From positions 1-64,000 of IMG/VR virus record IMGVR_UViG_3300021964_000050: a stretch of 64,000 nucleotides of DNA; one strand, 5' to 3'. Source of the DNA: a virus. Below, piece by piece: positions 17,365 through 60,518 of the stretch. The position numbers were made by a program, and so were the translations under genes. Under the pieces are notes generated by a model. That model was not told where the DNA came from and ran no database searches. It saw only the letters and a list, made by a program, of their open reading frames with translations. Every line of letters begins with the position of its first letter. Positions within the stretch are counted from its first letter, which is position 1.

Positions 17365-17634
17365 TCAAGTACCTCGCCGTTCTTTTACCCGAGTCCTCAC
17401 TGATACACCTCCCCAGAAGCCGTGTCGCTCCATCTCACCGTACTCGCGGCACTGTTTAGTAACTGGGCATCCATTGCAAATGCTTTTAGCCAGTGTTACA
17501 GTACTGGTGTCACCACGTTCGGGAAAGAAGATATTGGAATCCATCCCCCTACAAGCAGCGTCTTTAATCCATTCACGCTCTCGGTAGTCGGACAAGAATC
17601 CCTCAATTGTGAGTAGGTCGTCGTTGTAATCCAC
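17365..17634 (-). CDS. WhiB-family Fe-S transcription regulator (1 of 3)
   Basis: 89 residues. Four Cys in C-x24-C-x2-C-x5-C ('DAACRG...SICNGCPVTKQC') would hold a [4Fe-4S] cluster; 'GFWGGVS' is the WhiB turn and the C-terminal RTRVKERR is the DNA-contact tail. WhiB proteins act with the host primary sigma factor and are confined to Actinobacteria and their phages. I start at the second GTG (17634), 6 nt after a -10 box, which implies a leaderless mRNA; GTG at 17637 is the alternative. Confidence 0.92.
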   Translation of the reverse strand: MDYNDDLLTIEGFLSDYREREWIKDAACRGMDSNIFFPERGDTSTVTLAKSICNGCPVTKQCREYGEMERHGFWGGVSVRTRVKERRGT

Positions 17635-17640
17635 CACTAT

Positions 17641-17936: not shown

Positions 17937-17989
17937 TAAACGGCCTTTTTAGACCCTACCTGTGGATAACTCCTGATATGAGGGTGATA

Positions 17990-22773: not shown

Positions 22774-23058
22774 CTACTGACGCTTGCGTACGTAAAAGTA
22801 CCCGCCGTCTTGGTCTGCGTGTAGCGGACGTGCTCCTGCTAGGTTAACGTCGACAACAGAACTACGAGGACCATACCTCATGGCATCTTTGATTGTGTGA
22901 GTTACCCAAATGCCTTCGTGGTCGCCTAAATGAGAGACATCAGGGAACTCATTTCCCTTATCAAGTTCTTCTCGTGCATGATCCTGTACACCCCACCACT
23001 TGCTGTGATCGGTGCGGTACCCTACCTCTTTAGATTTGAACTGCGGTCCAAGGGCCAT
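22774..23058 (-). CDS. Small protein, possibly ART-fold
   Basis: 94 residues. Starts MALGPQF, like the Arr-like protein (MTLGPQF), and has 'EGIWVTHTIKDAMRYGPRSSVVDVNLAGARPLHAD', the 'xLYVTxxxxxAxxYG...V..V.L' strand pattern of ADP-ribosyltransferase folds. The catalytic residues are not clear, so this is a weak assignment. ATG overlaps the upstream stop as TGATG. Confidence 0.6.
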   Translation of the reverse strand: MALGPQFKSKEVGYRTDHSKWWGVQDHAREELDKGNEFPDVSHLGDHEGIWVTHTIKDAMRYGPRSSVVDVNLAGARPLHADQDGGYFYVRKRQ

Positions 23059-23513
23059 CAGTCCTCCCGGTTGTTCGCAATAAAGTTTTCTCGCTCATCA
23101 CCGGTCAACATGGCACCAAAGTACGCCGTCCTTGGCACGGTAGTCTCGTGGATCTGTCCGCCACGACGCACCCACGAGTGGTTACGCCAGAGACCGTCAT
23201 CTGATGAGGCATACCCGGACCACAACTCCGTATCGGGTTCACGTGCGGCACAGTTGGCGCTGTTGCCGTGACACCTGCTCATTTCTCCGGGCATCGGTAC
23301 CGACTGTCCACCGTGAAGAACGCCACGAGAAACGAGTCGACGGTTAAACGCCGCTTCGCCCGCCGCCGGAACTAGCAGGGACTGCTCGTGTCCGGGCAGA
23401 CCCTGTATATGACGCTCTAATCCGGTGTGCGCTTCGACATCTTCGGCAGGCCAATCTGACATGCGAGTCTGAAAGAACTGTTGTCGGTTGAGTCGGTCTG
23501 GTCCGCTGAGCAT
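23058..23513 (-). CDS. Putative Cys/His-type enzyme, first gene left of the hub
   Basis: 151 residues. Conserved-looking core: 'RGVLHGGQSVPMPGEMSRCHGNSANCAA...LWSGYASSDDGLWRNHSWVRRGGQIHETTVPRTAYFGAML'. The order Cys (RCHGNS), His (NHSW) and Glu (HETT) resembles papain or transglutaminase-like folds. I have seen similar proteins in phages without an assigned role. As first gene of the leftward cassette it is probably expressed early. Activity is inferred only. Confidence 0.68.
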   Translation of the reverse strand: MLSGPDRLNRQQFFQTRMSDWPAEDVEAHTGLERHIQGLPGHEQSLLVPAAGEAAFNRRLVSRGVLHGGQSVPMPGEMSRCHGNSANCAAREPDTELWSGYASSDDGLWRNHSWVRRGGQIHETTVPRTAYFGAMLTGDERENFIANNRED

Positions 23514-23579
23514 TGGGCCAATTTACCATACCCATATAGGGGCCATAGCCGCCTTTGTTACGCAAAATGGCTAGGGGCG

Positions 23580-24397
23580 CGTGATAATTGTCACGACACA
23601 CAAATGGTTGAGGTGAACGGGCCTATGTGTTTATTGTCACAACGGTGTGGCTATTTCGCGGGGGCCTACATGGGGTCGTTTTTTCGATTATTGGGGGGTG
23701 TCATCTACCCCCCTGTGGATAAACTTGTGGACAACTAATGGTGGGGGGGTCTCCCTGTGGATAACTTTACTTGACAAACCTGTCAACCCCTGTTCCACCC
23801 TTATTCCATAAGGGTTTCGTGACTTTGCGTTATCCACAACCCCTGTGGACAGTGAATCGAACACCTGTTCGTCAAGGGGTGTCGATGTGACATTTGTCAC
23901 GCTGAGTTATCCCCAGAACATATGTTCTTGTGGAAATCGCCCCCGCAAACCCTTATTCCACCGTAGATAGGGGGGTCAAACCTGTGGAAAAGCCTGTGGA
24001 AGCCAATCTTTAGTGCTAAATGCGTTTGAGCCTTATGCCGTAAGGGTTTCAGCAGTTATCCACTGGTTGTGGGAAACGCGCTGGTAGCCCCCCGATAGCC
24101 AGCAAGCACTGCCACACCAGAATCGACCTACGCCGCTCAGCGGGGCTTCTGGGGGGCAATGCGGTGTCAAGTGACATTTGTCACACTTATCGACCTACGT
24201 TCGGGCCTACTGTGACATTTGTCACACCAATCACCGCTGTGTGGGTAGGAAACCGAACACTTGTACCCCCCACCCCCAGTTGCTATCACCCTGTGACCTT
24301 TGTCACATCCCCTCCCCATACATACATATGTCCTCTCTCCCATGACCTTTGGATTCGGGGGCGACCTTGGGGCGACCGAGGTGTGACAAACGTCACA
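23580..24397. promoter_or_regulatory. Six TGTGAC-N4-GTCACA operator-like palindromes
   Basis: Sites at 23580-23595, 23886-23901, 24170-24185, 24211-24226, 24292-24307 and 24382-24397; the last three have perfect arms. They fit TGTGA-N6-TCACA, the CRP/GlxR consensus. The four right-hand sites are spaced 41, 81 and 90 bp, near whole helical turns. A host CRP-type factor or a phage repressor could bind them. Confidence 0.75.
23714..24064. other. DnaA-box cluster
   Basis: Perfect TTATCCACA at 23714-23722 (minus), 23756-23764 (minus) and 23830-23838 (plus). TTGTCCACA, the actinobacterial variant, at 23726-23734 (minus). One-mismatch copies at 23844-23852, 23906-23914 and 24056-24064. Seven boxes in 350 bp is far beyond the rest of the window as seen by eye. 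Confidence 0.75.
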
Positions 24398-24450
24398 CAA
24401 ACTTTCTTCCCCGACATGCACGAGTTGCTGGGTCGCCATGGCACCTTGGA

Positions 24451-25033
24451 ACCATGAACACCGGCCAGCACGGTCGGCCTCATACCGCTGGAGTGCACAT
24501 GACAAAGCGCAAGCGACCTCCCCCAATGACGGGGGCGGGGACAGCACTCCCACTGACTACGAGTCATCACCTCACTGGGTATCCGGTGACGGTGGTGCCT
24601 GCGTATGTCTTGCCCACCTACGGGAACGACGGGGGCGGTACAACGAGCGGACAGAACGACGCTCCACATCATTCACATCTGCGTGCAGGACTTCCCCTTG
24701 GCTGGGGAGCACTTCGGTGGCCTGCACTCACGACGTACTACAGACCTGCGGAACTCTTACCGCCACCAACCCATCGGATGCCCGAGTGTTGGGGGCGACC
24801 ACGAGCAACGAGATCGACCACTACGTCCGACAGCAACGGCAACGACGGCATCACCACCGTCCGACTGTTCGTAAAGCACGCAGGCATGAGTCAGTCAGTC
24901 CCCTTGGCAGGGGACAAGGTGACGACGACTCAGCACCCTCGCCGGAGGGTGCGCCCACCATTCACTGACGTCAGCCGGTGCATGGTGGGGGCACACTCCG
25001 GTGCCCATCCCACAAGCCTGAGGAGGCAACACC
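24451..25033 (+). other. Stretch with ambiguous ORFs and two hairpins
   Basis: Three plus-strand frames are open here (24349-25278, 24438-24968, 24605-24874); none has a good ribosome-binding site or a known family. The 24605-24874 frame has the most C/G-ending codons in its middle ('LHIIHICVQDFPLAGEHFGG'). It stops just before two hairpins: GTCCCC/GGGGAC at 24898-24915 and GCACCCTC/GAGGGTGC at 24933-24952. A real gene may lie here, but I cannot choose its frame. Confidence 0.4.
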
Positions 25034-25360
25034 ATGGAAGCAACCATCTCAATCACCCTCACCGACCAAGAGGCCGAGGACATCCTCGTCACCGCCTTGG
25101 AAGGGGGCATCAACTACTGGGCAGACGTCATCTCATCCGGTCGCAACGACGGCGTGCTGATGGCGCACATTCGCCCCACCGAAGGGGACGACTTCGAGCC
25201 AATGCTCATCCACCCCGGCCACATCCAGCAGGGCGTCGACCGGCTCTGCGCCAGCGAGTGCCAGTGGCATGTCACTGACCTACTCAACGACAACGCCGAC
25301 GCCACCACCGCCGACGTCATCGTGCAGTTCGCAGTGCTTGGTGACATCATCTTCGGATGA
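25034..25360 (+). CDS. Conserved small phage protein
   Basis: 108 residues; GAGGAGG before ATG. 'TLTDQEAEDILVTALEGGINYWADV' is a pattern seen in small early proteins of several phages. Acidic alpha/beta protein. First confident gene of the GC-rich rightward early block, followed by two hairpins. Function unknown. Confidence 0.82.
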   Translation: MEATISITLTDQEAEDILVTALEGGINYWADVISSGRNDGVLMAHIRPTEGDDFEPMLIHPGHIQQGVDRLCASECQWHVTDLLNDNADATTADVIVQFAVLGDIIFG

Positions 25361-25369
25361 CAGGACGAA

Positions 25370-25403
25370 ACACCCGCAAGGGTGTCACGGGGTGGTAGCC
25401 CCG
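25370..25403 (+). terminator. Tandem hairpins after first early gene
   Basis: ACACCC-GCAA-GGGTGT (25370-25385, GNRA loop) and CGGGG/CCCCG (25388-25403) directly after the stop. No U-run, so they may act as mRNA stabilisers or weak terminators. Confidence 0.5.
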
Positions 25404-25443
25404 TCTGATGAGTCCATCAGCCCACGAGCCTTAGGAGGCCACC

Positions 25444-25650
25444 ATGCAAGTAACCGTCAACCGCCAGCAACTCGCCCACAACGCCCTGCGCCGTCGTGCC
25501 GATGGTATGCGCCGTGAGATCGACGCCTTCATCGACGCCTGCGAGGGCATGGACGTCGATGAGGTGGCCTACGCCATCGTTGACCTTCGTGACGCCTTCG
25601 ACCGATTCCGCAAGGCCGGTATCAACCTCGTGAAGGAGGCCAACGCATGA
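25444..25650 (+). CDS. Small helical protein (68 aa)
   Basis: AGGAGG before ATG. Helical, Arg-rich start 'NRQQLAHNALRRRADGMRREIDAFIDACEGMDVDEVAYAIVDLRDAFDRFRKAG'. It overlaps the next gene as ATGA. Its motif 'NRQQLxHxxxxR' recurs at the N-terminus of the 220-residue protein two genes on ('NRQQSLIHRL'). Unknown function. Confidence 0.78.
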   Translation: MQVTVNRQQLAHNALRRRADGMRREIDAFIDACEGMDVDEVAYAIVDLRDAFDRFRKAGINLVKEANA

Positions 25651-25769
25651 CCGGCAACCAAGGTCACAAGCCCATCCGACGCCCCATCGACGCCACGGCC
25701 TCACGGTTCGTGGCATCGGGGCGTCACCACGCCCAGCACGGAAGCAAACCCACCAAGGAGAAGAAATGA
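25647..25769 (+). CDS. 40-residue basic peptide
   Basis: MTGNQGHKPIRRPIDATASR followed by a His/Lys-rich tail. Both ends overlap neighbours as ATGA, with GAAGGAGG upstream of the start and AAGGAG near its own end serving the next gene. Function unknown. Confidence 0.65.
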   Translation: MTGNQGHKPIRRPIDATASRFVASGRHHAQHGSKPTKEKK

Positions 25770-26428
25770 ACGCCATGACCAACCGCCAACAGTCCCTCAT
25801 CCACCGCCTCTGCAATGAGCGGATGGGGGCGCTGACCACCACTCACGCCCACCTGCTCCAGCAGGAGATCGTCACCACTCGTGACGCCTCGCAACTCATC
25901 GACGCCCTCATGGCAGTGCCGACTGACCCCGTTGAGGTCGATCAGGCCGAGCAGGGGCGCATTGAGGCTCTCAAGGCCAACGTGCCCAACCTCTCCCCCA
26001 AGGACGCCACCTTCGCCCTGTCGCTCATCAACCAGTTCGACAGCAAGGGTCGCCTGAGTGAGAAGCAGTGGCCTCACGTTGACCGCCTCGCACGGCCTCA
26101 GGCTGAGGCCAAGTGCGACCCTCAACCGTTGGACATCGTAGACGTCGATGGCGACCACTACCTCGTTGCCCGTAGCCAGCCAGAGCGTGGTGGTCGCTTG
26201 TACGCCAAGCGCCTCATCGACGGCAAATGGTCGTACGAGGCCGGTGGCATCGACCGTGCCCGTCAGGGTCATATCCTGACCGGTGACGCTCTCGCAGAGT
26301 TCGCCAGCAAGCAAGGCCACACTCACGGTCACTGCGTGTTCTGCGGTCTTGAGTTGACCGACGAGCGTTCAGTCACCGTTGGCTACGGCAAGCACTGTGC
26401 CGAGCGACGCTCCTTGCCTTGGGGCTGA
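25766..26428 (+). CDS. DUF6011-type zinc-binding protein
   Basis: 220 residues. The C-terminal ~40 residues 'HCVFCGLELTDERSVTVGYGKHCAERR' match the DUF6011 treble-clef pattern C-x2-C-x-x-L-T...S...G-Y/I-G-x-x-C. The N-terminal half is helical. DUF6011 modules occur in phage and plasmid early proteins next to helicases, consistent with the SNF2 gene that follows. Role likely nucleic-acid binding. Confidence 0.82.
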   Translation: MNAMTNRQQSLIHRLCNERMGALTTTHAHLLQQEIVTTRDASQLIDALMAVPTDPVEVDQAEQGRIEALKANVPNLSPKDATFALSLINQFDSKGRLSEKQWPHVDRLARPQAEAKCDPQPLDIVDVDGDHYLVARSQPERGGRLYAKRLIDGKWSYEAGGIDRARQGHILTGDALAEFASKQGHTHGHCVFCGLELTDERSVTVGYGKHCAERRSLPWG

Positions 26429-26457
26429 GTCATCGACTACCGTCCATATCCCATCAA

Positions 26458-26476
26458 CCCATACCCATACCAACCC
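26458..26476 (+). promoter_or_regulatory. ACCCATACC element 1
   Basis: CCCATACCCATACCAACCC, ~20 bp before the start of the SNF2 gene. Member of a set of six related elements. Confidence 0.55.
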
Positions 26477-26494
26477 GAGCCTCAGGAGGCCACC

Positions 26495-27961
26495 ATGTCC
26501 ACACTCGCAGACCTACTCGCTGGCAACGCCAGCACCCCGGCGCCATCGACGTTCACTGACGTCACGCCGGTTGACCTCGCCATTCCCCTGATGGACTTCC
26601 AGCAGGAGGCAGTAGCCCACGCCCTTCGCCCAGTGCAGGGTTCGCCCTACGCCTACCTCGCACTGGACATGGGTCTCGGCAAGACCCCCTGTGGCATCGC
26701 CATCATCGCTTCGTGCCACAAGGCGCAGGGTGGCAAGCACCTCGTCGTGGTGCCTCCGTCGCTCCGCATCAACTGGGAGCGTGAGTTCGCCAAGTTCGCA
26801 CCGTGGCTCTCAGTCGCCATCCTGACCGGCACCAAGCCATCGGCACTGCCCGATGTCGATGTGCTCATCATCGGTGACAGCACTGTCGCCCACTGGGAGT
26901 TGGCTCTCATGGGCAAGGTTGAGTCCCTCGTGGTCGATGAGGCACACCGCCACAAGAACGGCAAGAGCAAGCGTGCCAAGGCACTCGCCAACATCGCCAA
27001 CACCGTGCGGGGTGCCCGTGTTCTGCTCTCAGGCACGCCGACTCCCAACGGTCGCCACTACGAACTGGCCTCGCAGTTCGACATCCTTGGCAAGCGTGCT
27101 TGGAACGACATCGGTGGCGTCGGCACCTTCTGGGGGCGCTTCTGCCCCAAGACCGACGCATGGGGCGGGCGTGGCAACGCTGAGGGCGATGTCCTGCACG
27201 CCTTCATGACCGACACCTTCATGATGCGCCGTCGCCGTGATGACGTCATCGACCTCCCCAACAAGGGTCGGTCGGCAGTGTCGATGGAGTGCGCTGGCAA
27301 GGCCAGTAAGGACTACATCTCCGCTGAGAATGACCTCATCGCATGGCTCTCCGATCAGGGTCGTGACACCCGTGGCGCTGAGCGTGCCGAAGCCCTCGTC
27401 CGCATGAACACTCTCCGACGCCTCGCTGGTGAGGCCAAGGTTCAGGCAGTCGTGGAACACGTCAAGGAACTGCTGGAGGACGGCAACGGCGGTGTGTTCG
27501 TCGTCGCTGAGCACAAGGACGTCATGGACAGGCTCATGATGGGTCTCGCTAAGTACGCCCCCGTCAGTGTTCAGGGTGGCATGTCCGACAGTGCCAAGCA
27601 GGAGGCAGTCGATGCCTTCTCATCAGGCCAGAGCCGGGTCATGGTCGGCCAGATCATTGCGGCTGGTGTCGGCCTCACGCTCCACGGCAACGGTCTCAAC
27701 CACCGTGTCGTCGTCGTCCAACTCCCATGGACACCGGCTGACCTCCGTCAGGCAGAAGATCGCCTGCACCGCATCGGTCAGACCAACGACGTCGAAGTCG
27801 AAGTGGCACTCGCCCACATCGACGGTCGCTGGACTATCGACGAGCGTCTCTGGACAATGCTGGAGAGCAAGAACTTCGCCACCGGCGAGGTCATCGACGG
27901 CTCCGGTGATTACCTGCTGGACAACAGCACCGCTGACGGTGTGTTGGACACCTACCGCTGA
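26495..27961 (+). CDS. SNF2-family DNA translocase/helicase (early)
   Basis: 488 residues. Motif I 'LDMGLGKTPCGIAI', Ia 'HLVVVPPSLRINWERE', II 'LVVDEAHRHKNGKSKR' (DEAH), III 'VLLSGTPTPNGRHYEL', V 'QIIAAGVGLTLHG', VI 'QAEDRLHRIGQTNDV'. The HARP/SMARCAL1-like compact form is common in phages. It translocates on dsDNA and may assist fork restart or recombination. A second SNF2 enzyme is encoded in the replication operon (55683-57221). Confidence 0.93.
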   Translation: MSTLADLLAGNASTPAPSTFTDVTPVDLAIPLMDFQQEAVAHALRPVQGSPYAYLALDMGLGKTPCGIAIIASCHKAQGGKHLVVVPPSLRINWEREFAKFAPWLSVAILTGTKPSALPDVDVLIIGDSTVAHWELALMGKVESLVVDEAHRHKNGKSKRAKALANIANTVRGARVLLSGTPTPNGRHYELASQFDILGKRAWNDIGGVGTFWGRFCPKTDAWGGRGNAEGDVLHAFMTDTFMMRRRRDDVIDLPNKGRSAVSMECAGKASKDYISAENDLIAWLSDQGRDTRGAERAEALVRMNTLRRLAGEAKVQAVVEHVKELLEDGNGGVFVVAEHKDVMDRLMMGLAKYAPVSVQGGMSDSAKQEAVDAFSSGQSRVMVGQIIAAGVGLTLHGNGLNHRVVVVQLPWTPADLRQAEDRLHRIGQTNDVEVEVALAHIDGRWTIDERLWTMLESKNFATGEVIDGSGDYLLDNSTADGVLDTYR

Positions 27962-27966
27962 CAACT

Positions 27967-27988
27967 GGAGGGGGCGCAAGCCCCCTCC
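27967..27988 (+). terminator. GNRA-loop hairpin after SNF2 gene
   Basis: GGAGGGGGC-GCAA-GCCCCCTCC, 9-bp GC stem 5 nt beyond the stop, immediately followed by an ACCCATACC element. Confidence 0.75.
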
Positions 27989-27992
27989 CCTT

Positions 27993-28014
27993 ACCCATAC
28001 CAAACCCATACCAA
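27993..28014 (+). promoter_or_regulatory. ACCCATACC element 2
   Basis: Two direct copies of ACCCATACCAA between the upstream hairpin and the next gene's Shine-Dalgarno. Confidence 0.55.
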
Positions 28015-28039
28015 TCAAGTCCTAAGGAGGACAACTGAC

Positions 28040-28342
28040 ATGACCACCACCTACAACCACGAGGCCGTCGAACTTGGTCTCTACATCGACAATGACCACG
28101 CCACCTACGAACTCCGGTGGGAGTACTTCGCCACGCTGGACAAGCACTGGCAGAGGGGGCGCTTCTCCAAGGAGCGTGCCCTCGTCCTGCTGGAGCGCTA
28201 CGTCCAAGAGGGTGCCAAGCGCCACCACGCTGAGCACGGCACCCCCGGCGACAAGTGGTACACGATCTTCACGCCAGTCACACGGCGTGAGGTAGCCGAG
28301 GCACTGTTGGACGAATACATCGACCAGCAACAGATTCACTGA
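28040..28342 (+). CDS. Hypothetical early protein (100 aa)
   Basis: AAGGAGG before ATG. 'ELRWEYFATLDKHWQRGRFSKERALVLLERYVQEGAKRHHAEHG' - helical with aromatic and basic patches. Enclosed by its own upstream element and downstream hairpin, so it appears to be a separate transcription unit. Unknown. Confidence 0.78.
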   Translation: MTTTYNHEAVELGLYIDNDHATYELRWEYFATLDKHWQRGRFSKERALVLLERYVQEGAKRHHAEHGTPGDKWYTIFTPVTRREVAEALLDEYIDQQQIH

Positions 28343-28348
28343 CGTCGC

Positions 28349-28376
28349 CGGGGTGCTTGACCAGTGTCACACCCCG
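28349..28376 (+). terminator. Hairpin after hypothetical early gene
   Basis: CGGGGTG / CACCCCG, 7-bp stem with a 14-nt loop, 7 nt beyond the stop. Confidence 0.55.
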
Positions 28377-28392
28377 ATGACATACTCCATTC

Positions 28393-28410
28393 ATACCCAA
28401 CCCATACCAA
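28393..28410 (+). promoter_or_regulatory. ACCCATACC element 3
   Basis: ATACCCAACCCATACCAA, ~35 bp before the MoxR gene start. Confidence 0.5.
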
Positions 28411-28442
28411 CACCAATCCCAACCAGCCCAAGGAGGGCAATC

Positions 28443-29729
28443 ATGCAAGTCAAGCACCTACAAGCCGGACTCCAAGTCCACATCATCGACGGGCCGATGC
28501 AAGGCTTCACCGCCACCGTCATCGACCCGAACGTCATCCCTGACGGCCAGCCCAACCAGCGCAAGGTCGCTGTCGATATCAACGGTGCCGGTGCCAACGG
28601 CTCCAACCTCCGGTCGTACATCCTGCCCCGGCAGTTGGACGTCCAGCCGGTAGCCCCGGCACCTGCCCCGATGCCGGTCGCAGTGCCAACTGCCGACAGC
28701 GCTGACCTGACGGTCATCCGTAACGGCGAGGTTGAGGTCGCAGAGCCGATCACTGACCCGATGCACCCAGCGTTCGACTCATGGCGTCCTGACCCTGCCA
28801 TCGTCAAGGAGTACGTCAGCCGTACCCTTCCCGGTGGCTTGTCCGACATCGACTACCTGCTCCACCTCCGTGACATGCGTGACGACAACGGGTACTCACC
28901 CAACGTCGCCTTCGTCGGAGAGACGCAGAGTGGCAAGACCATGCTCGTCCGGGTGCTCGCAGTGCTCAGCGCATTGCGTGACGGTATGCCCAAGCCATAC
29001 CCCGTCTTTACCCTCAACGGCGAGGTTGGTATCTCGTCGTACGACCTCTTCGGTCAGCCATCCACCGTCGTCATCGACGGTGTGGAGACCATCGTGTGGT
29101 GCGAGGGTCTTGTTCCCCTCGCCCTCAAGTGTGGTGGCTTCCTCTACCTAGACGAGTGGAACGCCGTTGCCAGCGGTCAGGCCGTCGCCCTGCACACCGT
29201 GCTTGACGACCGTCGTGAGTTCACCAACCGCCAGCGTGCGCTCCCCATCCCCGGTCACCCTCATGGGTTCATGCCGGAGACGGTCAAGGCTCATCCAAAC
29301 ACTTGGATTATCTCCACCATCAACCCCGGCTACAAGGGGACGCAAGCCATGGCAGAAGCCAGCACCAACCGCTTCCGGTGGGTGCCGTGGGACTACGACG
29401 ACACCGTGGAGGCCACGCTGGTTCCCAGCGCCACCATCCGCTCGTTCGGCAAGGCTCTGCGTGAGGCTCGTGCCCAGCGTGCCCTGACCTTGCCAGTCGG
29501 TTCGTCAGCGCTCCGTCGCCTCAACGAGGACTGCGCCACATTCGGTGTGGACAGTGCCATGTGGTCATTCACCGCCATGTTCCCACCTGCGGAGCGTGAG
29601 CGTGTGCAGACCATCGCTGAGGACAGGGGCTTCATTGACCTGCTGAAGGCTGAGTACCCCAACCCAGTGTTCGCACCTGTTCAGGACGAGGCTGACCAGC
29701 CTGTCGCTGAGGATGCCAACGCCTTCTAA
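28443..29729 (+). CDS. MoxR/CobS-type AAA+ ATPase
   Basis: 428 residues from ATG at 28443 (AAGGAGG upstream; the longer frame from 28353 is rejected). N-terminal ~60 residues form a small beta domain ('LQVHIIDGPMQGFTATVIDP'), then a Pro-rich linker. AAA+ core: Walker A 'GETQSGKT', Walker B 'FLYLDEWN', sensor 1 'WIISTINPGYKG', Arg finger 'STNRFRW'. MoxR ATPases remodel a VWA partner, and the next gene encodes one. CobS of cobaltochelatase is a relative. Confidence 0.9.
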   Translation: MQVKHLQAGLQVHIIDGPMQGFTATVIDPNVIPDGQPNQRKVAVDINGAGANGSNLRSYILPRQLDVQPVAPAPAPMPVAVPTADSADLTVIRNGEVEVAEPITDPMHPAFDSWRPDPAIVKEYVSRTLPGGLSDIDYLLHLRDMRDDNGYSPNVAFVGETQSGKTMLVRVLAVLSALRDGMPKPYPVFTLNGEVGISSYDLFGQPSTVVIDGVETIVWCEGLVPLALKCGGFLYLDEWNAVASGQAVALHTVLDDRREFTNRQRALPIPGHPHGFMPETVKAHPNTWIISTINPGYKGTQAMAEASTNRFRWVPWDYDDTVEATLVPSATIRSFGKALREARAQRALTLPVGSSALRRLNEDCATFGVDSAMWSFTAMFPPAERERVQTIAEDRGFIDLLKAEYPNPVFAPVQDEADQPVAEDANAF

Positions 29730-29733
29730 CCCT

Positions 29734-29760
29734 GAGAGGGGGGCGCTACGCCCCCCTCTC
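29734..29760 (+). terminator. Strong hairpin after MoxR gene
   Basis: GAGAGGGGGGCG-CTA-CGCCCCCCTCTC, 12-bp perfect stem with a 3-nt loop 4 nt beyond the stop. Confidence 0.8.
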
Positions 29761-29780
29761 CCATACCCCTCTCATACCCA
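29761..29780 (+). promoter_or_regulatory. ACCCATACC element 4
   Basis: CCATACCCCTCTCATACCCA, immediately after the hairpin and ~27 bp before the VWA gene. Confidence 0.5.
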
Positions 29781-29806
29781 TTCCGTATCATCCCAAAGGA
29801 GTCATC

Positions 29807-38673: not shown

Positions 38674-38703
38674 AGCATACAGGCTACGTGTGGCAATGTT
38701 CAA
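38674..38703 (-). promoter_or_regulatory. Promoter of second WhiB gene
   Basis: Minus strand -35 TTGAAC (38703-38698), 18-bp spacer, -10 TATGCT (38679-38674); predicted start point at the ATG. Confidence 0.5.
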
Positions 38704-39065
38704 GTCTTACTTCTTGGCCTGCGCTTCAGATGCTTACGTATCTCCATCCGCAACTCTGTGATGGACAGGGCAACCTCACTGTCGGCCAACGGCATGACGC
38801 ATAACTTGTCTAGTGGCAGATAAGTCTTGGTCTTTCGGTAGACGTTATTACGGCGCTCCTTAGGGGTTTGCCCGCCCCACATACCGTACTCTTCGTCCTG
38901 CCCTGCTTCATGGCACTCGTTGATGACCGGGCAGTGCTCACATACCAGTTTCCCTAAGTCGTAGTACTGTGCTTCGGGGGCAGTGCGCTCTTCCTTGAAG
39001 AGGGGTGGATACCACATCTCACTGTGCATACCACGGCACAAAGCATCGTCAGACCAATGAGCCAT
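38700..39065 (-). CDS. WhiB-family regulator with C-terminal extension (3 of 3)
   Basis: 121 residues from ATG at 39065. 'DALCRGMHSEMWYPP...LVCEHCPVINECHEA' gives four Cys, followed by 'YGMWGGQTPKERR'. A ~45-residue extension ends in basic KHLKRRPRSK, likely DNA binding. Larger than typical phage WhiB. It lies just upstream of WhiB 2, which retains its own promoter. Confidence 0.88.
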   Translation of the reverse strand: MAHWSDDALCRGMHSEMWYPPLFKEERTAPEAQYYDLGKLVCEHCPVINECHEAGQDEEYGMWGGQTPKERRNNVYRKTKTYLPLDKLCVMPLADSEVALSITELRMEIRKHLKRRPRSKT

Positions 39066-39067
39066 TA

Positions 39068-39373
39068 CTAGTACGTGTTCTCCACGCAGTCCCAGCCACA
39101 TGCCGCATAGCCAGCCAGATCAACCCAGTTGTCACGGCGGTCAGGAGACCATGCAATACGACTCAACTTCAGCATCGACATCAGTACAGCAACGTCGTGG
39201 GGTAGTAGGTGGTCACGGTGCTCGTAGACCGACTTGAGGTAGATGTCCCACATACCTGCGGTCTTACGGAAGTCATCGTTGGGGTCGCCGTAATCGACGT
39301 TACGGTCACCGTTGATGAGGTCGTTGGCCTCGTTGAGCACCTCAGTGCGAGTCTGTCCGGTATTAGCGTTCAT
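39068..39373 (-). CDS. DUF6378-family protein
   Basis: 101 residues. 'LNEANDLINGDRNVDYGDPNDDFRKTAGMWDIYL...LLPHDVAVLMSMLKLSRIAWSPDRRDNWVDLAGYAACG' is the DUF6378 pattern (NGDRxxxYGDP, K-x-x-R, R-D-x-W-x-D-x-A-G-Y). All-helical; reminiscent of MazG-like nucleotide enzymes, but activity unproven. Common in phages. Confidence 0.88.
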   Translation of the reverse strand: MNANTGQTRTEVLNEANDLINGDRNVDYGDPNDDFRKTAGMWDIYLKSVYEHRDHLLPHDVAVLMSMLKLSRIAWSPDRRDNWVDLAGYAACGWDCVENTY

Positions 39374-51869: not shown

Positions 51870-53966
51870 TTATCCCTTCGCCTCGGACCATGATCCTGCG
51901 TGGTGCGCTTCTACTTCAAGTGAAACACCCATGATAACCCTACCATTTCCCATGTACTCTTCGACCATGGGTTCCCACTTGTTGAGTTCGTCTACGGGAA
52001 CGCTAATAACGATCTCGTCATGAACCTGTACTAACATCTTACACTTCGGGTAGTCCAGTACTGAGGACAGTTTGACCATGGCTTCTTTACAGATCTCAGA
52101 TGCTGTGCCCTGAATGATGGCGTTGATCGCCTGCCTCTCAGAGCGTGACTTGGCAGCGAAGTCGTCAGATTCCAAGTCAGGAACACGGCGACGACGACCA
52201 GTCATAGTCTCTACATATCCCCTACGGCGACCTTCAGCGATGGCCTTGTTCTTCCACGCTGTGAGACCTGCGTAGCCTTTGTTGTAGTTCTCTACGACAA
52301 CACGAGCCTCATCAAGAGATAACTGGCCGTTGGTAGAATCAACGAGACGCTTAGGACCACCACCATATCCCATGAGAAAGTTTGGCGTTTTCCCATAAAT
52401 GTTGCGCTCCTCGCTAGTGATCTCTTCAGGTGGTTTGCCTAGGATAACACTGGCAGTACCGGCGTGTACGTCAATGTTGTTCTCAAAGATATTCAGCAGT
52501 GCAGGGTCTTGGCTGTACATAGCCATAATACGCATCTCAATCTGGCTGTAGTCGGCCACGATTAGGGTATTCCCCGGCTCTGCTACGAAGAGTCCACGCA
52601 CCCGACCGTCACGTGGGATGTTCTGTAGGTTAGGGTCGCTGGCTGACAAACGTCCCGTGGCAGTACGTGACAGGTGGAACTGAGGGTGTAGTCGCCCCTT
52701 GTTCATCAACGGCATAAGCCCGTCAACGTAGGTGGACTTCATTTTCTTCAGTTCTGCGTACTCCATCAGGTAGTCGATAATGGGGTGCTGACCTTGCAAC
52801 GACCTGAGGGAATCCTCGTCAACGCTGGGGTTACCCTTGGCTGTTGTCTTCTTTGGTTTTAGGCCAAGACCACCCTCACGCTTCTTGTTAAACAAGAACT
52901 CCACTTTGTGTGCATTGCTATCAGGGTTGAACCCGATGGGGGCGTAGTAGGAGATATCAGCCAATTTGTTGTTGATGTCAAGGTCTAGAGCCTTGCCCAA
53001 CTTCTTGATCTCACGCTGGTTGACAGCGATACCGTTCATCTCCATCTGTGCCAGTACTGACAGCGTGTCACTGTCTAGGTACATGGCTTTCAGTAAACCA
53101 TCATGGTTTTTGATGTACCGAGTCAGGCGCTGGTAAATGAGCCATGCCCACCTACAGTCATAGTGTACGTACCTACACGCCTTGCTAAACGGTTCGGTGG
53201 TTATCGTCTTACCGATCTTACCGTCCCTGTGATAGGGGTCGAAAGAGAACACACGTTCGATGATGGGGCCGAGGCTGTACGAGGACAGGTTCTCGTCAAC
53301 GAGGTGCATCAGCACCATCGTGTCGATATACCGCCCCTTAGGTAGTACGCCCCCATAGTACTTTGATATGGACTTAGCGTCGAACTTGATGTTCTGGTTG
53401 ATCTTCACGATGCCCTCGTCCATGAACAGCGGCTCAAGAGCGGTGAACACTTGTTCCTGAGTCAGTTGCTCTGGGGCTTCGGTGAACGTAGCCGGAATGA
53501 AGTACTTAGACCTAGCCATGGACTCCTTACCAGAAGAAAGGATAGCCCTATGACCCTCGGGGGGTATGGTTGACCCGTCTCCACGCTGCTCTTTGACAAG
53601 CACTTCTCCGTTGGGGTGCCCCATCGGGATAGCCCACGACTTACCTCGTGTAGCAATACCAATCCAGAACACCTCGTTACGTAGTGTGTCTAGCGCCAGA
53701 TTGCCACGCCACTTGTCTTCAATAGCCTGTCGTGACTTCTGGACAACTGTGGGGTGGTCGCTCTTCAGCGAGGCTTGCTTAGCCTCCCACTCATCTTCCA
53801 CAATTTGCATGATGTCAGGGTGACGGTCGATGTGACCACGTGTCTCTACGTCAAAAGAGAACGCACCCTCTGCTTTTACCGTATCGACAATTGTCGATAT
53901 CTCGTCTAGAGACAGAACGGCGGGGGCACTAGGCCCCCGCCGTCCGCTCGCACTGTTGGGTTCCAA
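51870..53966 (-). CDS. polA: Family A DNA polymerase
   Basis: 698 residues, TTG start at 53966 (no other start precedes the exonuclease motif). 3'-5' exonuclease: 'FSFDVETRG', 'KINQNIKFDAKSISKYY', 'ACRYVHYDCRWAWLIY'. Polymerase: motif A 'LIVADYSQIEMRIMAMYS', motif B 'RNIYGKTPNFLMGYG', motif C 'MLVQVHDEIVISV'. No 5' nuclease domain. Replicative polymerase of the phage. The first ~60 codons contain two strong inverted repeats. Confidence 0.95.
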   Translation of the reverse strand: MEPNSASGRRGPSAPAVLSLDEISTIVDTVKAEGAFSFDVETRGHIDRHPDIMQIVEDEWEAKQASLKSDHPTVVQKSRQAIEDKWRGNLALDTLRNEVFWIGIATRGKSWAIPMGHPNGEVLVKEQRGDGSTIPPEGHRAILSSGKESMARSKYFIPATFTEAPEQLTQEQVFTALEPLFMDEGIVKINQNIKFDAKSISKYYGGVLPKGRYIDTMVLMHLVDENLSSYSLGPIIERVFSFDPYHRDGKIGKTITTEPFSKACRYVHYDCRWAWLIYQRLTRYIKNHDGLLKAMYLDSDTLSVLAQMEMNGIAVNQREIKKLGKALDLDINNKLADISYYAPIGFNPDSNAHKVEFLFNKKREGGLGLKPKKTTAKGNPSVDEDSLRSLQGQHPIIDYLMEYAELKKMKSTYVDGLMPLMNKGRLHPQFHLSRTATGRLSASDPNLQNIPRDGRVRGLFVAEPGNTLIVADYSQIEMRIMAMYSQDPALLNIFENNIDVHAGTASVILGKPPEEITSEERNIYGKTPNFLMGYGGGPKRLVDSTNGQLSLDEARVVVENYNKGYAGLTAWKNKAIAEGRRRGYVETMTGRRRRVPDLESDDFAAKSRSERQAINAIIQGTASEICKEAMVKLSSVLDYPKCKMLVQVHDEIVISVPVDELNKWEPMVEEYMGNGRVIMGVSLEVEAHHAGSWSEAKG
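53882..53943 (-). promoter_or_regulatory. Hairpin and 18-bp palindrome in the start of polA
   Basis: An 11-bp perfect stem ACGGCGGGGGC/GCCCCCGCCGT with a 5-nt loop (53917-53943) is followed, in reading direction, by the perfect 18-bp palindrome TATCGACAATTGTCGATA (53882-53899). Both lie inside codons ~8-29 of polA. Confidence 0.7.
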
Positions 53967-53969
53967 GGC

Positions 53970-54641
53970 TCAGTTGTAGTCCATGTCCTCAGCGGCAACA
54001 CCCTGTAGGGTCGTACGGCTGGGGATCGGGACAATACTGGCATCGTATGCCTGCTCTTTCAGGCTGTCGATGTCGTCCTCGCTGAGGGGGGCGATACCCC
54101 ACTCTTCCTCAAGGTCACGGTCACGCACCATCTGATGGTTGGTTTGTGATGTCGGTCCCTTACCACTACGGGAGACTGCCCAGTAGTGCTTGGGAAGTGG
54201 CCCCTGTCGTGGGTCTTGATGGAAGTTCTTGAGGCTGTCGATCACACGAGGGCCTACTTCGTAGGAGCGTACAGCGCTGTCGCCATCCTCGTTGAGGAGA
54301 ATAACATTGAAAGCGAACCGTGCGCTCGGACGATGGCCTGCGTCGCACAACGGGCATCCCTTGGGGGACATGTCTGCGATGCAAGTGAATGACTTCTGCC
54401 CTTGACGTTCTACCCAGTGTTGGCGGTAGGAGGTGTAAGGCTCATCCTCTAGGAACTTCACGATGACGGGCTTGTCATCAATCTTCAGACGCTGAGCGTA
54501 GGGGCTGTCGGCTTGCTTAGTGCTGTCGACATTGCCCCAGCCACGCTTAATGACTCGTCGTGCCTCAGCACGATCTAAGTCAGTGTCGTCGTCACGGACA
54601 GCAACTGCGCCCGTGTCTTCATCGTCATCGAATCTACCCAT
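53970..54641 (-). CDS. Single-stranded-DNA-binding protein (phage type)
   Basis: 223 residues. Acidic N-terminus, then 'RGWGNVDSTKQADSPYAQRLKIDDKPVIVKFLEDEPYTSYRQHWVER' and 'SFTCIADMSPKGCPLCDAGHRPSARFAFNVIL', the OB-fold/zinc pattern of actinophage SSB-like proteins (C...C-x2-C..H). C-terminus acidic (AAEDMDYN), as in SSBs that recruit partners. Directly upstream of polA. Confidence 0.82.
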   Translation of the reverse strand: MGRFDDDEDTGAVAVRDDDTDLDRAEARRVIKRGWGNVDSTKQADSPYAQRLKIDDKPVIVKFLEDEPYTSYRQHWVERQGQKSFTCIADMSPKGCPLCDAGHRPSARFAFNVILLNEDGDSAVRSYEVGPRVIDSLKNFHQDPRQGPLPKHYWAVSRSGKGPTSQTNHQMVRDRDLEEEWGIAPLSEDDIDSLKEQAYDASIVPIPSRTTLQGVAAEDMDYN

Positions 54642-55686: not shown

Positions 55687-57221
55687 ACTCGTGATTCTCT
55701 CAGAAAGCCACTCAAGGTGTCAAGGGATAGATCCATACTTCCATCATTGTCGTGGTGCTTGCCGTCGATGAACGCCTCATTGACAGAGCGCTTCACCTGA
55801 AGCATCTCGTATTGACGCTCTTCGATACTGCCCTGCATCACGAATGTGGCAATGGTTACGTGGGGGAACTCGGAGGACAAGCGAATGATGCGAGCCTCTC
55901 GCTGTTCTAGTTTCCCGCTACTCCATGGCAGGTCGTAGGAGATTAGGTAGTTAGCCATAGGTAGGTCAACCCCATATCCACCGGCGTCCGACGACAGGAA
56001 CAACCGACAGTTGGGGTCGGTAGCAAACTTCTGCTTCGATGCGTCTCTAGCCGCGGCATCCATACCGCCCATAAACAGCACACTGTCAGTCATGTTAGAA
56101 GTGGCCTTCTGAATAAGTCGTAAGTTCTCTTTGAAGAAGGAGAAGAGAACAACTTTGTTTTGGGGGTCCTCTGATAATGTGGATTCGATGTACGCGATGC
56201 AGGCGTCCAATTTGGGAGTGGTATCAACACCTGATACCCACCCCATATGCGCTATATCATGAGCATATTGGCTTCCATCCTTCACATTTGGGTCAGCGTA
56301 CTTCTGGGCTGAGATCCTCACCAACTCGGGATTATCACATAACATCCGCAGTACAGTCAGGCGTGACATTATTTGCCCCTGCGCCTCATCACCGTCGCCA
56401 CCGTTGTAGTGCGCCCACAGACTAAACGCTCCTTTACCCTTACCCATAGCCTCGCTGATTTTGGCTAGAAGATCGTTAGATATCTGCCTGTAGAGGGTGG
56501 CTCCCCTATTATCAAATGGTACGGGTACAACCTGATGAATGATGTCAGGTAACTGGTCCTTGATGTCGTCGCGGGTTTTACGGATCATACACTCCTTCAT
56601 CACCCGGTGCATCTTGTCCAAGTTGCGGTATCGCATGGGTTTGCCCCATGTATCGCGGACTATGAATGTCCTATCGAATGTCTTGAAGTCACCCAGAACC
56701 TGCTTGTCGACGAACTCCATGATGCTGAACAGTTCCTCGGGGCGGTTCTCAATAGGCTGGCCGGTAAGGGCGAAGCGATAGGGCACTGTACGCCCTACCT
56801 TTTTCAACAGTTTCGACCGCTTGGCTGTGCGGTTCTTAATCATGGTGCTCTCGTCAATAACGACGGCTTGAATGGTGCCGATCTTGTCGACGTCGTTAGC
56901 CAGCGTTTCTGCATTGACGATGACATACCTACTGTTCAGAGACATGCGCCACTGACCGTCACGTTTAGCCTTGGTGCCGTCAATAACAGTGGCTTTAGCG
57001 TCAGTAAACTTGGCTATTTCTCGCAACCACTGGAACTTGAGAGAAGCGGGGACGACAACTAAACACCGTTCTACCTCCCCTTCTTCATGTAGGGATTCAA
57101 TTGCGCCCAACGTCGTGGGTGTCTTACCTGCACCCATGACCATACCCAGCAGCATCTGACCACGGTCGACCATGCGCTCGACCGCTTCTTGCTGGTAAGG
57201 CCATAGTGTTCCCTTAAACAT
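55683..57221 (-). CDS. SNF2-family ATPase (replication operon)
   Basis: 512 residues. Motif I 'GMVMGAGKTPTT', II 'AVVIDESTMIKNR' (DEST rather than DEAH), III 'ALTGQPIENRPEEL', V 'SDAGGYGVDLPMANYLISYD' and VI 'KLEQREARIIRLSS'. Differs clearly from the early-block SNF2 enzyme (DEAH, GLGKT). Likely DNA translocase in replication or recombination. Confidence 0.92.
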   Translation of the reverse strand: MFKGTLWPYQQEAVERMVDRGQMLLGMVMGAGKTPTTLGAIESLHEEGEVERCLVVVPASLKFQWLREIAKFTDAKATVIDGTKAKRDGQWRMSLNSRYVIVNAETLANDVDKIGTIQAVVIDESTMIKNRTAKRSKLLKKVGRTVPYRFALTGQPIENRPEELFSIMEFVDKQVLGDFKTFDRTFIVRDTWGKPMRYRNLDKMHRVMKECMIRKTRDDIKDQLPDIIHQVVPVPFDNRGATLYRQISNDLLAKISEAMGKGKGAFSLWAHYNGGDGDEAQGQIMSRLTVLRMLCDNPELVRISAQKYADPNVKDGSQYAHDIAHMGWVSGVDTTPKLDACIAYIESTLSEDPQNKVVLFSFFKENLRLIQKATSNMTDSVLFMGGMDAAARDASKQKFATDPNCRLFLSSDAGGYGVDLPMANYLISYDLPWSSGKLEQREARIIRLSSEFPHVTIATFVMQGSIEERQYEMLQVKRSVNEAFIDGKHHDNDGSMDLSLDTLSGFLRESRV

Positions 57222-58119
57222 ATACTGAAGTGACGCTCGCTATTCCCTTAATAATCTGACCATCTGTCATATCGCCCAAGTCCTTGACCTCATCGCAGTA
57301 CTTCCAGTATTTAGTCCCCCGCCTAAACGAGGGAAGCGATTTGGCTAAACGCTTAGTCTCTATACGGCCTGTTTGGTCATTATCTAGTGCGATAATAACC
57401 CCGTCAAACCGGTCTGATAGTAGGTTGATCTGTTTTGTGGAGATATTGGCCCCAAATGACGCCACGGCAGAGATATCAGATCCACCGTATACGCTATGAA
57501 ACCGCACTACATCTAAGGGAGATTCTAGCAGAAGAGCAGTGGGACCGAACGCACGTTCGATACCAAATACGGTATCACCCTTATGTACACCCTCAGGGTG
57601 GTTACGCACCCAGCCAGTCTTCTTGAGTTGCCACCCCCACAGTTCCCCTAGCGGAGATACGATAGGTATAACAGTGGCCTTGCGTTCGTCGTCCCACTTA
57701 ATGCCGTACCTACGAGATGTCTCCTCATCTAGCCGACGATGCCGAAGCATCTTGTCAGGTAGAGGTTGGAAACGGCTGTACTGTCCCCAGTCTACTTGGG
57801 GGCGTACCTCGTGAACCTCTTGCTCTTCAGCAGTCAGTCTCTGTAGACCGGAGGTAATGAGGTGTGACTGGATACTCCATAGAGCAGAAGGATCGTCAGT
57901 TAGTTGGCTGACGAGCATAGACAGGTTGCCACGGGCACCGCAGGAGAAGCAGTACCACAGGCCACTATCAGAGTTTAGATACCACGAGTAACGAGAACTT
58001 TCACGACCTTTAGTTAGGTGGTGTACCGGGCACCGCCCGTTGATCTCGTCGTTCTGCACACGGTGTACCTCTACACCTAGACCCGACAGGACCTCAGTCA
58101 GGTCGTCGCTGTGACTCAT
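57214..58119 (-). CDS. DnaG-type primase
   Basis: 301 residues. Zinc-binding CHC2-like N-terminus 'NGRCPVHHLTKG...LWYCFSCGARGN', then the TOPRIM domain 'ALLLESPLDVVRFH' (E) and 'DGVIIALDNDQTGRIETKRLA' (DxD). Compact phage primase lacking the long C-terminal helicase-binding region. Coupled to helicase genes. Confidence 0.9.
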   Translation of the reverse strand: MSHSDDLTEVLSGLGVEVHRVQNDEINGRCPVHHLTKGRESSRYSWYLNSDSGLWYCFSCGARGNLSMLVSQLTDDPSALWSIQSHLITSGLQRLTAEEQEVHEVRPQVDWGQYSRFQPLPDKMLRHRRLDEETSRRYGIKWDDERKATVIPIVSPLGELWGWQLKKTGWVRNHPEGVHKGDTVFGIERAFGPTALLLESPLDVVRFHSVYGGSDISAVASFGANISTKQINLLSDRFDGVIIALDNDQTGRIETKRLAKSLPSFRRGTKYWKYCDEVKDLGDMTDGQIIKGIASVTSVYV

Positions 58120-58229: not shown

Positions 58230-59480
58230 TCAGTCGAATGATGGGTCAATTTCGTCCACCTCGTAAACTTCCTCAAATTCCATGGTCTGCCAATCCCACT
58301 TGACGTGGACTTCGGCATGGGGGGCAGTTCGTGCCTCCACTACACGAATAATGGCTTGGTCATCTAGGTCAGGGTTACGTTCAACACCCAGCACGAGGTC
58401 TGCGTCTTGGACGAATGATGAAGTGTAGCCGATGCTGTCGGCGGTGATTGCTCGCGTACGCTTGTTGTTAAGTTTCCACGACAACACCTGCGAAGTACCT
58501 ACGATAGGTATATCAAACCGCTGTGCGAGGCGCTTCACTCCACGAGTAATGTTTGTCAGAGCCTGCGGCGATCCTTTTGGCTCACCGTTCTCATCATCCA
58601 TCAGATACATACCGTCGATAAACACGGCGTCAGGCTGGTACTCCTGAATCTTGTTGCCGATAGCGCTAATGGTCGTGAGACTGCTGGAGTCCTCCGACAT
58701 CATGAACGGTTGCATGTTCTTCATCATCCGCATGGACTTCTCTAGGCGGTCGAACTCTTTGTCCGACATCTGTCCGCTGAGGATGCGTTCGTACGGAATC
58801 TTGGCGATAAGAGAATAGAACCGAGACCTCTGCTCCGCTACCGACATCTCAAAGGAGATAAACAAAGGAGTAAGTCCATGGCGGTGGCAAGCATTAGCCA
58901 TAATCAACTCAAAGAGAGACTTACCACGCTTAGGCTCACCTACCATAACGACGAACTGTTGGGGGCGCAGGCCGTAGGTCACTCTGTCCAGACCAGCAAA
59001 GCCCGTGGGGATACCTTGCAAGGCGTTGGGGTTGTCTTTCATCTCCCGGTACATCTGCAACTGCTCTTCCCAACCTTCGATGATGTTGAAGTCACGTAGG
59101 CGGGCAGTGTCAGCACTGGCCGACTGGAGACCCTTGGCGAGGATAGCGATGGCCTCGGACACGTTGTCCTTGTCAAGTGGTGCCATGGCGTCGCTGATAG
59201 AGGATGCCACGGTACGAGTACGGTAGGCGTCGATGAGTTCCTTGAACAGACCGCTGAACGACTCAGCAGTCGTATCCACGATGTCGATGTCACCGTAAGC
59301 CGTATGAAATGCCCTCTCGCTGGGGACATTGCCGTGTTCGTTGTTGTAGTTCAACACCCATTGGTAGATGCTTTCCCAGTCGCCGGAGAAGTACATGGGC
59401 TTGATACCCGACTTCACGGCTTCGTTGAGGGATTGCTCCTCAATAACCTTGCTAATTACTAGGTGCTCAATAGATGCCAT
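58230..59480 (-). CDS. dnaB: Replicative DnaB-like helicase
   Basis: 416 residues. N-terminal helical domain (~1-120), then the RecA-fold: Walker A 'GEPKRGKSLF', 'LFISFEMSVAEQRSRFYS', Walker B 'DAVFIDGMYLMDD', 'IPIVGTSQVLSWK' and 'GYTSSFVQDADLVLGVER'. Loop 'KRGKS' and 'GTSQ' replace the usual bacterial forms but fit phage DnaB. ATG overlaps the upstream stop as TAATG. Confidence 0.93.
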   Translation of the reverse strand: MASIEHLVISKVIEEQSLNEAVKSGIKPMYFSGDWESIYQWVLNYNNEHGNVPSERAFHTAYGDIDIVDTTAESFSGLFKELIDAYRTRTVASSISDAMAPLDKDNVSEAIAILAKGLQSASADTARLRDFNIIEGWEEQLQMYREMKDNPNALQGIPTGFAGLDRVTYGLRPQQFVVMVGEPKRGKSLFELIMANACHRHGLTPLFISFEMSVAEQRSRFYSLIAKIPYERILSGQMSDKEFDRLEKSMRMMKNMQPFMMSEDSSSLTTISAIGNKIQEYQPDAVFIDGMYLMDDENGEPKGSPQALTNITRGVKRLAQRFDIPIVGTSQVLSWKLNNKRTRAITADSIGYTSSFVQDADLVLGVERNPDLDDQAIIRVVEARTAPHAEVHVKWDWQTMEFEEVYEVDEIDPSFD

Positions 59481-59932
59481 TAGATTCCAAACGTCCCATC
59501 TGGGAGGGCGACCGTGGCCCTGAACCCGAGTATTGCAGCGTCCTCTTCATAAGGAGTGAAGAGGGTGTGTACGTCACGGTTGTACTTAAAGTCGTCTCTC
59601 AACGTGTCCAAGTCAGGGTAGGCGTACACGCTCACATTGATGCCCTTACGTGCGAGCCAGTGCTCAACGGATTCCACGAGGTCATCCTCGTAGTACGTGT
59701 ATACCTCTACCCCTAGGTCTAATTGATTGACCATGTGGTACACCGATTTTAGAGGCATCTCGTTGACACGCCAGCGTCGTACTTCCTGCTTAACCCACTC
59801 GTCGTCGGTCAACTCCTTGTCACGACGAAAGAACCGGCGCTTAGGTGGTTCTTCCTGACGTGTAATCAGCAAGTCCTCAAACCAACAGGCGATGTGCTTG
59901 TGGACTGTGGGAGCGATGTCACCTTTTTCCAC
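59480..59932 (-). CDS. Conserved hypothetical protein (150 aa)
   Basis: 'VHKHIACWFEDLLITRQEEPPKRRFF...LKSVYHMVNQLDLGVEVYTYYEDDLVESVEHWLARKGINVSVYAYPDLDTLRDDFKYNRDVHTLFTPYEEDAAILGFRATVAL' has Rossmann/HAD-like alternation in the second half, without a catalytic DxD. Set between helicase loader and helicase; perhaps an accessory. Confidence 0.75.
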   Translation of the reverse strand: MEKGDIAPTVHKHIACWFEDLLITRQEEPPKRRFFRRDKELTDDEWVKQEVRRWRVNEMPLKSVYHMVNQLDLGVEVYTYYEDDLVESVEHWLARKGINVSVYAYPDLDTLRDDFKYNRDVHTLFTPYEEDAAILGFRATVALPDGTFGI

Positions 59933-60518
59933 GAATTACCTCATGGTCAAAGTCAGCGAGAGGGTTGGCTAGTCGGGAACCGTACCGGTTCTTAATATCT
60001 TGAATGGACAGGCGTGAAGTAATGATCGTGGCCTTACCCTTGTCGTACCTCTTACGGATTAGGCTACCCAACTCATGCTGTGCGAACCCTAGGTCCTCGC
60101 CGTATTTGGGGCTGAGGCGCTCCTCGCCTAGACCGTCGATGACTACGATGTCAAACACTGCCTTGACGTATTTCACGATGTGTGGGCTGGAGTACATCTC
60201 GGGGAGATTGCCGTCAGATGTATCAAACGAATCCTTAAGCATCTCAATGTAATCATCTGCCTCAATCCACCTCCCAGAACAGTTGTGCTCAGATACTAAG
60301 TGCTTCAAGGTACTTGCGGCTATCAAAGACTTGCCACACCCTGAGGGTCCCTGAATGAACAGGTTAGGTAGGTCTATCTTGTGGGGGCAGTGGTGCCACC
60401 CGTCCATGTTTTCGTAAATACGCTTCGGGATGTGCATGTGGTGCAGGCGTTCATCTTTAGGACGATTACGCCACCACGCCTCGCTCTTCCATTCCAACGG
60501 TGTGCTGTAGTTCACCAA
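59919..60518 (-). CDS. DnaC/IstB-like helicase-loader ATPase
   Basis: 199 residues. Walker A 'FIQGPSGCGKSLIA', Walker B 'FDIVVIDGLGEER', sensor 1 'ATIITSRLSIQDI', and Arg-containing C-terminus 'RYGSRLANPLADFDHEVIRG'. Short form like phage DnaC homologues. It would load the adjacent DnaB onto SSB-coated DNA at the origin. Confidence 0.9.
   Translation of the reverse strand: MVNYSTPLEWKSEAWWRNRPKDERLHHMHIPKRIYENMDGWHHCPHKIDLPNLFIQGPSGCGKSLIAASTLKHLVSEHNCSGRWIEADDYIEMLKDSFDTSDGNLPEMYSSPHIVKYVKAVFDIVVIDGLGEERLSPKYGEDLGFAQHELGSLIRKRYDKGKATIITSRLSIQDIKNRYGSRLANPLADFDHEVIRGKR

Follow-up and report, generated by a model that had tools for sequence, protein, structure and literature searches.

Replication origins of the P1 oriR and pSC101 type combine host DnaA boxes with an element-encoded Rep protein and iterons. 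Bacterial counterparts include the oriC of Streptomyces, which spans ~950 bp, and the high-affinity DnaA box form TTGTCCACA of Streptomyces and Mycobacterium (consensus in PMC4285127). For phages, an origin with DnaA boxes was predicted by Ori-Finder in Pseudomonas phage vB_PseuGesM_254 (PMC11512268), and no description of DnaA arrays in tailed phages generally was found in an open-access subset of the literature, which is not proof of novelty. The locus analyzed here is a divergent non-coding region of an environmental phage (IMG/VR record IMGVR_UViG_3300021964_000050, 68,336 bp; the window is the 64,000-nucleotide stretch formed by its bases 1-64000). It resembles the oriC of Streptomyces and Mycobacterium in its ~0.9 kb of non-coding DNA and its clustered DnaA boxes in both orientations, TTGTCCACA included, but differs in having no dnaA or dnaN neighbours, fewer boxes that are mostly TTATCCACA, no identified DUE, and a setting within a divergent promoter region. 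Like the P1 oriR and pSC101 type, it places host DnaA boxes in the putative replication region of an extrachromosomal element, whereas a Rep was not found and a full phage set of DnaB, loader and primase is present. The likeness to vB_PseuGesM_254 lies in a putative phage origin with DnaA boxes, although that case concerns another host group, rests on an AT-rich region and is a prediction only. On balance, and with moderate confidence, we read the region as a host-DnaA-dependent, oriC-like origin set inside the single divergent operator region of what looks like a virulent actinobacterial phage.

The closest cultured relatives of this phage are Streptomyces phages BRock (Borockvirus), LuckySocke, Alone3, and GiJojo. 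BRock shares a homologous terminase (45%), major capsid protein (62%), DnaB and Pol I as well as a short rightward and a long leftward arm, yet its divergence region carries neither a DnaA-box cluster nor GTGAC palindromes, and no DnaA cluster occurs anywhere in its genome. A nucleotide search of phage records found no relatives of the window, and an Rfam search gave no matches.

The initial annotation had described a gene-free divergence point at 23514-24450, and this was confirmed by flanking genes on the minus strand to the left and the plus strand to the right. Minus-strand genes run up to 23513, plus-strand genes occupy ~25.0-36.5 kb, and minus-strand genes resume beyond 36.6 kb, so that the switch from minus to plus identifies 23.5-24.4 kb as the divergence point (Table 1). 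Two plus-strand ORFs (24438-24968 and 24349-25278) do not show the codon-position GC signature seen in neighbouring genes, so the non-coding stretch may reach ~25.0 kb. Overlapping plus-strand ORFs fill 24438-25030, and the first real rightward gene may begin only near 25034. The G+C content of the rightward arm (25000-31000) is 0.59-0.63, compared with ~0.52 in the remaining genome, and each arm carries a different SNF2-type helicase (26495-27961 and 55683-57221), both matching phrog_62.

Table 1. Positions of the candidate control region, its predicted sites and selected phage genes within the window
Feature	Position	Strand	Remark
Non-coding divergence region (candidate origin and operators)	23514..24450	.	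may extend to ~25030
First leftward ORF	23058..23513	-	function unknown
SNF2-type helicase, right arm	26495..27961	+	synteny anchor
Perfect DnaA box TTATCCACA	23714..23722	-	
Perfect DnaA box TTGTCCACA	23726..23734	-	
Perfect DnaA box TTATCCACA	23756..23764	-	
Perfect DnaA box TTATCCACA	23830..23838	+	
Near DnaA box CTGTCCACA	23844..23852	-	one mismatch
Near DnaA box TTATCCCCA	23907..23915	+	one mismatch
Near DnaA box TTTTCCACA	23983..23991	-	one mismatch
Near DnaA box TTATCCACT	24056..24064	+	one mismatch
CRP-like palindrome CGTGATAATTGTCACG	23580..23595	.	degenerate
CRP-like palindrome TGTGTTTATTGTCACA	23626..23641	.	degenerate
CRP-like palindrome TGTGACATTTGTCACG	23886..23901	.	
CRP-like palindrome AGTGACATTTGTCACA	24170..24185	.	
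CRP-like palindrome TGTGACATTTGTCACA	24211..24226	.	
CRP-like palindrome TGTGACCTTTGTCACA	24292..24307	.	
CRP-like palindrome TGTGACAAACGTCACA	24382..24397	.	
SOS-box-like site TCGAACACCTGTTCGT	23857..23872	.	one mismatch to TCGAAC-N4-GTTCGA
Partial SOS-box-like palindrome GAACATATGTTC	23916..23927	.	
Palindrome TTGACAAACCTGTCAA	23771..23786	.	sole exact TTGACA-N4-TGTCAA in record
Palindrome CACCCTTATTCCATAAGGGTT	23796..23816	.	
Palindrome GAGCCTTATGCCGTAAGGGTT	24028..24048	.	second copy of 23796 palindrome
Inverted-repeat frame GGTGTNNNCTACCC-(N29)-GGTGGGGGG	23697..23749	.	loop with two DnaA boxes
DNA primase	57214..58119	-	
DnaB-type replicative helicase	58230..59480	-	PF03796, 3.7e-34
DnaC-like helicase loader	59919..60518	-	
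Pol I-type DNA polymerase	51870..53966	-	
Single-strand DNA-binding protein (SSB)	53970..54641	-	
WhiB-family protein	17365..17637	-	points to actinobacterial host
Second WhiB-family protein	38700..39101	-	

Clustering of the DnaA boxes was examined across the whole 68,336-bp record, with a perfect box defined as TTRTCCACA. Four of the five perfect boxes fall in 23514-24450 (the fifth lies at 17961), which amounts to a density ~290 times that outside; the genome-wide count proposed as a check in the initial annotation thus finds the boxes almost confined to this site. The densest 400-bp window of the record begins at ~23.7 kb and holds eight boxes with at most one mismatch, whereas 400-bp windows clear of the region hold two or fewer. 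These observations were further strengthened by dinucleotide shuffling of the record, as none of 300 shuffles contained four perfect boxes in 350 bp and the largest shuffle cluster was two. The earlier count of four perfect boxes in both forms and the inverted repeats reported with them stand, while the near-perfect boxes number four rather than three; the classical high-GC actinobacterial form accounts for only one of the four perfect boxes, a point against the origin reading.

The initial annotation overlooked CRP-like, SOS-box-like and two further palindrome classes in the same stretch. The record contains five GTGAC-N4-GTCAC palindromes, every one of them within 23514-24450, against an expectation of 0.17 per whole record, and this clustering was likewise seen in none of 300 shuffles (largest shuffle cluster, one). 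With reference to the CRP consensus TGTGA-N6-TCACA (PMC4005916), the predicted sites match a CRP/GlxR-type operator, three as exact TGTGAC-N4-GTCACA and two with one mismatch. Except in its last base, the site at 23857 agrees with the LexA motif of Streptomyces, tCGAAC-N4-GNNCGa (PMC9380542), and it is weak evidence for a LexA box given further one-mismatch SOS-like sites elsewhere in the record. Both the TTGACA-N4-TGTCAA and the CCCTTAT-N3-ATAAGGG-like classes are complete only in this region of the record, the former class being found also in relative L130/L054. No phage-encoded CRP or LexA was suggested by any family search; a MerR-like HTH protein at 54663-55130 was a weak match. The "switch" part of the initial annotation gains some ground from these additional operator-like palindromes, which fit it.

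That the clusters arose by chance, as a compositional artefact, or through contamination with a bacterial oriC has a negligible probability, as shuffling reproduced neither the DnaA cluster nor the GTGAC palindromes, arrays recur independently in relatives, and the flanking genes are phage genes. Bacterial chromosomal oriC contamination was rejected after dnaA, dnaN and rpmH neighbours were not found beside the region.

The phage DnaB, DnaC-like loader and primase named in the initial annotation are present, and a UvsX-like recombinase and an exonuclease are also encoded. No DnaA or Rep-type initiator was detected among the proteins scanned against Pfam and PHROGs, the Pfam scan covering the record up to its last 4 kb and some of its small ORFs. 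A P1-like arrangement with a Rep initiator beside iterons was likewise not found, as there was no Rep among the scanned proteins. WhiB is an actinobacterial protein family, and the host is probably an actinobacterium in view of the WhiB proteins and of the closest cultured phages, which infect Streptomyces (terminase 45%). The occurrence of two WhiB-family proteins in one phage genome is an observation in its own right.

We infer DnaA binding and initiation at the region, together with the identity of the proteins that would bind its palindromes, as follows. In the most economical model, host DnaA would occupy the box cluster at 23.71-24.06 kb and remodel the DNA, and phage DnaB would be delivered to this site by the phage DnaC-like loader, to serve the phage primase and Pol I. 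The palindromes flanking the boxes (TGTGAC-N4-GTCACA, SOS-like, TTGACA-N4-TGTCAA, and CCCTTAT-N3-ATAAGGG) would be the operators of the two divergent transcription units, probably recognised by CRP-type and LexA-type regulators of the host.

Computation shows the sites, their clustering and the replisome genes, and also that DnaA arrays recur at the equivalent gap of related environmental phages, the IMG/VR terminase relatives being searched as whole records. At the divergent gap, six boxes are present in G009, where synteny is anchored by an SNF2 helicase (61% identical) and the gap also carries four exact GTGAC palindromes, six in G019, and five each in G011 and G007. A 12-box array in L228 adjoins homologues of the same right-arm genes, and L245, with ~10 boxes and four palindromes, is a probable member of the set, judged by weaker homology. 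Across the whole records of the window phage, G009, G011 and G007, the gap holds 75-83% of the perfect boxes at ~290-560 times the background density. In the window, G019, G009, L228 (degenerate copies) and L245 the arrays come with GTGAC-type palindromes, and the exact GTGAC-N4-GTCAC form does not occur outside the gap in the window record or G009. An array at this position is present in the window, G019, G009, G011, G007, L228 and probably L245, and absent from G002, G016, G018 and BRock. Such recurrence at the same spot suggests that the region is probably a phage origin and control switch. Two further candidates, G004 and G010, were rejected as gap-bearing relatives and left uncounted, the stretches being coding and the gap unidentified in either contig.

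No perfect DnaA boxes were found at the homologous gap of G002, G016 and G018, whose terminases are 93%, 87% and 88% identical to that of the window phage. All three retain GTGAC-type palindromes at the gap or close to it; in G016 and G018, four or five CGAAC-N4-GTTCG SOS-box-like palindromes take the place of DnaA boxes there. The CGAAC-N4-GTTCG arrays lie at L137:3203-3318 and L135:879-1025 (relatives G016 and G018), with some pairs 19 bp apart, and GTCACACGGTGTGAC palindromes also occur in the G016 gap. A frame of GGTGTNNNCTACCC-N(15-45)-GGTGGGGGG encloses the swapped segment in the window and four relatives (G019, G002, G016 and G018); its loop contains DnaA boxes in G019 and none in G002 or G016. 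The locus thus appears to be a conserved control position with exchangeable contents, and the DnaA array is replaceable, since close relatives (terminase up to 93%) lack it at the same gap. G002, G016 and G018 are partial contigs, so the origin could lie elsewhere in them.

The main alternative, which we regard as possible though rather unlikely, is that the region is a divergent promoter and operator only, where host DnaA and CRP-like or LexA-like proteins act as transcription factors timing both arms. Replication would in that case begin at another position, for instance through recombination or transcript priming that uses the phage UvsX-like recombinase, and the encoded recombinase and exonuclease agree with such a route. 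This alternative explains the retention of palindromes or SOS-box arrays at a gap without DnaA boxes more easily than the origin model does, and it accords with the site being the sole leftward/rightward divergence, with the several operator-like palindrome classes adjoining the boxes, and with the lack of replication-linked skew. However, arrays of 4-12 boxes exceed the needs of a typical promoter, and the phage encodes DnaB, loader and primase and, among the proteins scanned, no other initiator. A simple scan also found no sigma-70-like promoter, a result of little weight as the scan covers actinobacterial promoters poorly.

With regard to the skew, a minimum at ~23.8 kb had been proposed as a test of the origin model, and no inflection attributable to replication was found. 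Cumulative GC skew keeps falling across the site. At fourfold sites, minus-strand genes have a skew of −0.195 to the left versus −0.189 to the right, which indicates that skew follows the coding strand only, without a replication-strand signal. Neither raw nor fourfold-site skew gave an origin signal in the window and four related genomes. A GC-skew inflection is supporting evidence in bacteria and not a strict requirement in phages; in this genome the test is uninformative rather than contrary. Duplex stability is ordinary, the weakest 60-bp stretch of the region reaching the record's 2.7th percentile, and neither an exceptional unwinding element nor DnaA-trio-like repeats were found in the region. 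The earlier proposal of a host-DnaA origin is thus supported in part, by the cluster, the replisome genes and the arrays of relatives, and finds no backing in GC skew, in a DUE or DnaA-trio, or in the three array-less relatives.

Two other roles were judged less likely than an origin or a transcriptional regulator. The boxes might titrate host DnaA in the manner of datA and block initiation of the host chromosome during phage takeover, as multicopy DNA with DnaA boxes has been established to titrate DnaA in E. coli (PMC5835720) and dense boxes would here sit on DNA that turns multi-copy during infection. This is improbable, since eight boxes per genome are few, titration does not require them to sit precisely at the divergent gap, and they are missing from some relatives. 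It is slightly more improbable still that virion DNA ends lie in the gap and its repeats serve the terminase. The BRock record has a 221-bp direct terminal repeat in the corresponding region that carries a similar GGTGGGGGGTC motif, but that repeat is without DnaA boxes or GTGAC palindromes, and the window record (68,336 bp) has no terminal repeats and runs continuously through the gap.

Beyond these relatives, viral contigs were scanned for TGTGGATAA(C) occurring three times at a spacing of 5-35 bp, with the reversed word as a control. At least 120 contigs, among them L167-L286 of IMG/VR, carried arrays of at least three closely spaced DnaA boxes, compared with 2 for the control. DnaA arrays are thus common in environmental phages, many of them next to terminase genes. 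The genes flanking a sample of the arrays are phage genes, mostly terminase large subunit and SU10-type portal, and dnaA and dnaN were not among the families listed for that sample. Where orientation could be judged, 35 array gaps were divergent, 7 convergent and 27 same-strand. Another phage lineage therefore carries such arrays close to its packaging genes as well. In 4 of 120 array loci, six parS-like ParB sites GTTYCACGTGRAAC are found no more than 800 bp from the array (L203:3266, L222:3752, L240:2896, and L245:11952, 11976 and 12298), with none elsewhere in ~0.8 Mb of the same loci; a general association between parS and DnaA arrays was not supported, as the reverse search from parS gave a ratio of 1.2.

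These findings address the open question of how most environmental tailed phages that have their own DnaB and primase and no initiator begin replication, and a host-DnaA array that recurs at the divergence point provides a concrete, testable origin candidate. Such recurrence suggests that the host initiator is exploited by many phages, and it also shows that close relatives can exchange control modules at one locus. More speculatively, a widespread class of environmental phages may carry oriC-mimicking control regions at the divergent promoter gap, in which host DnaA arrays and CRP-like and LexA-like sites would make the onset of phage replication and transcription depend on the cell cycle, nutrient status and DNA damage of the host, with relatives swapping modules in and out at the locus.
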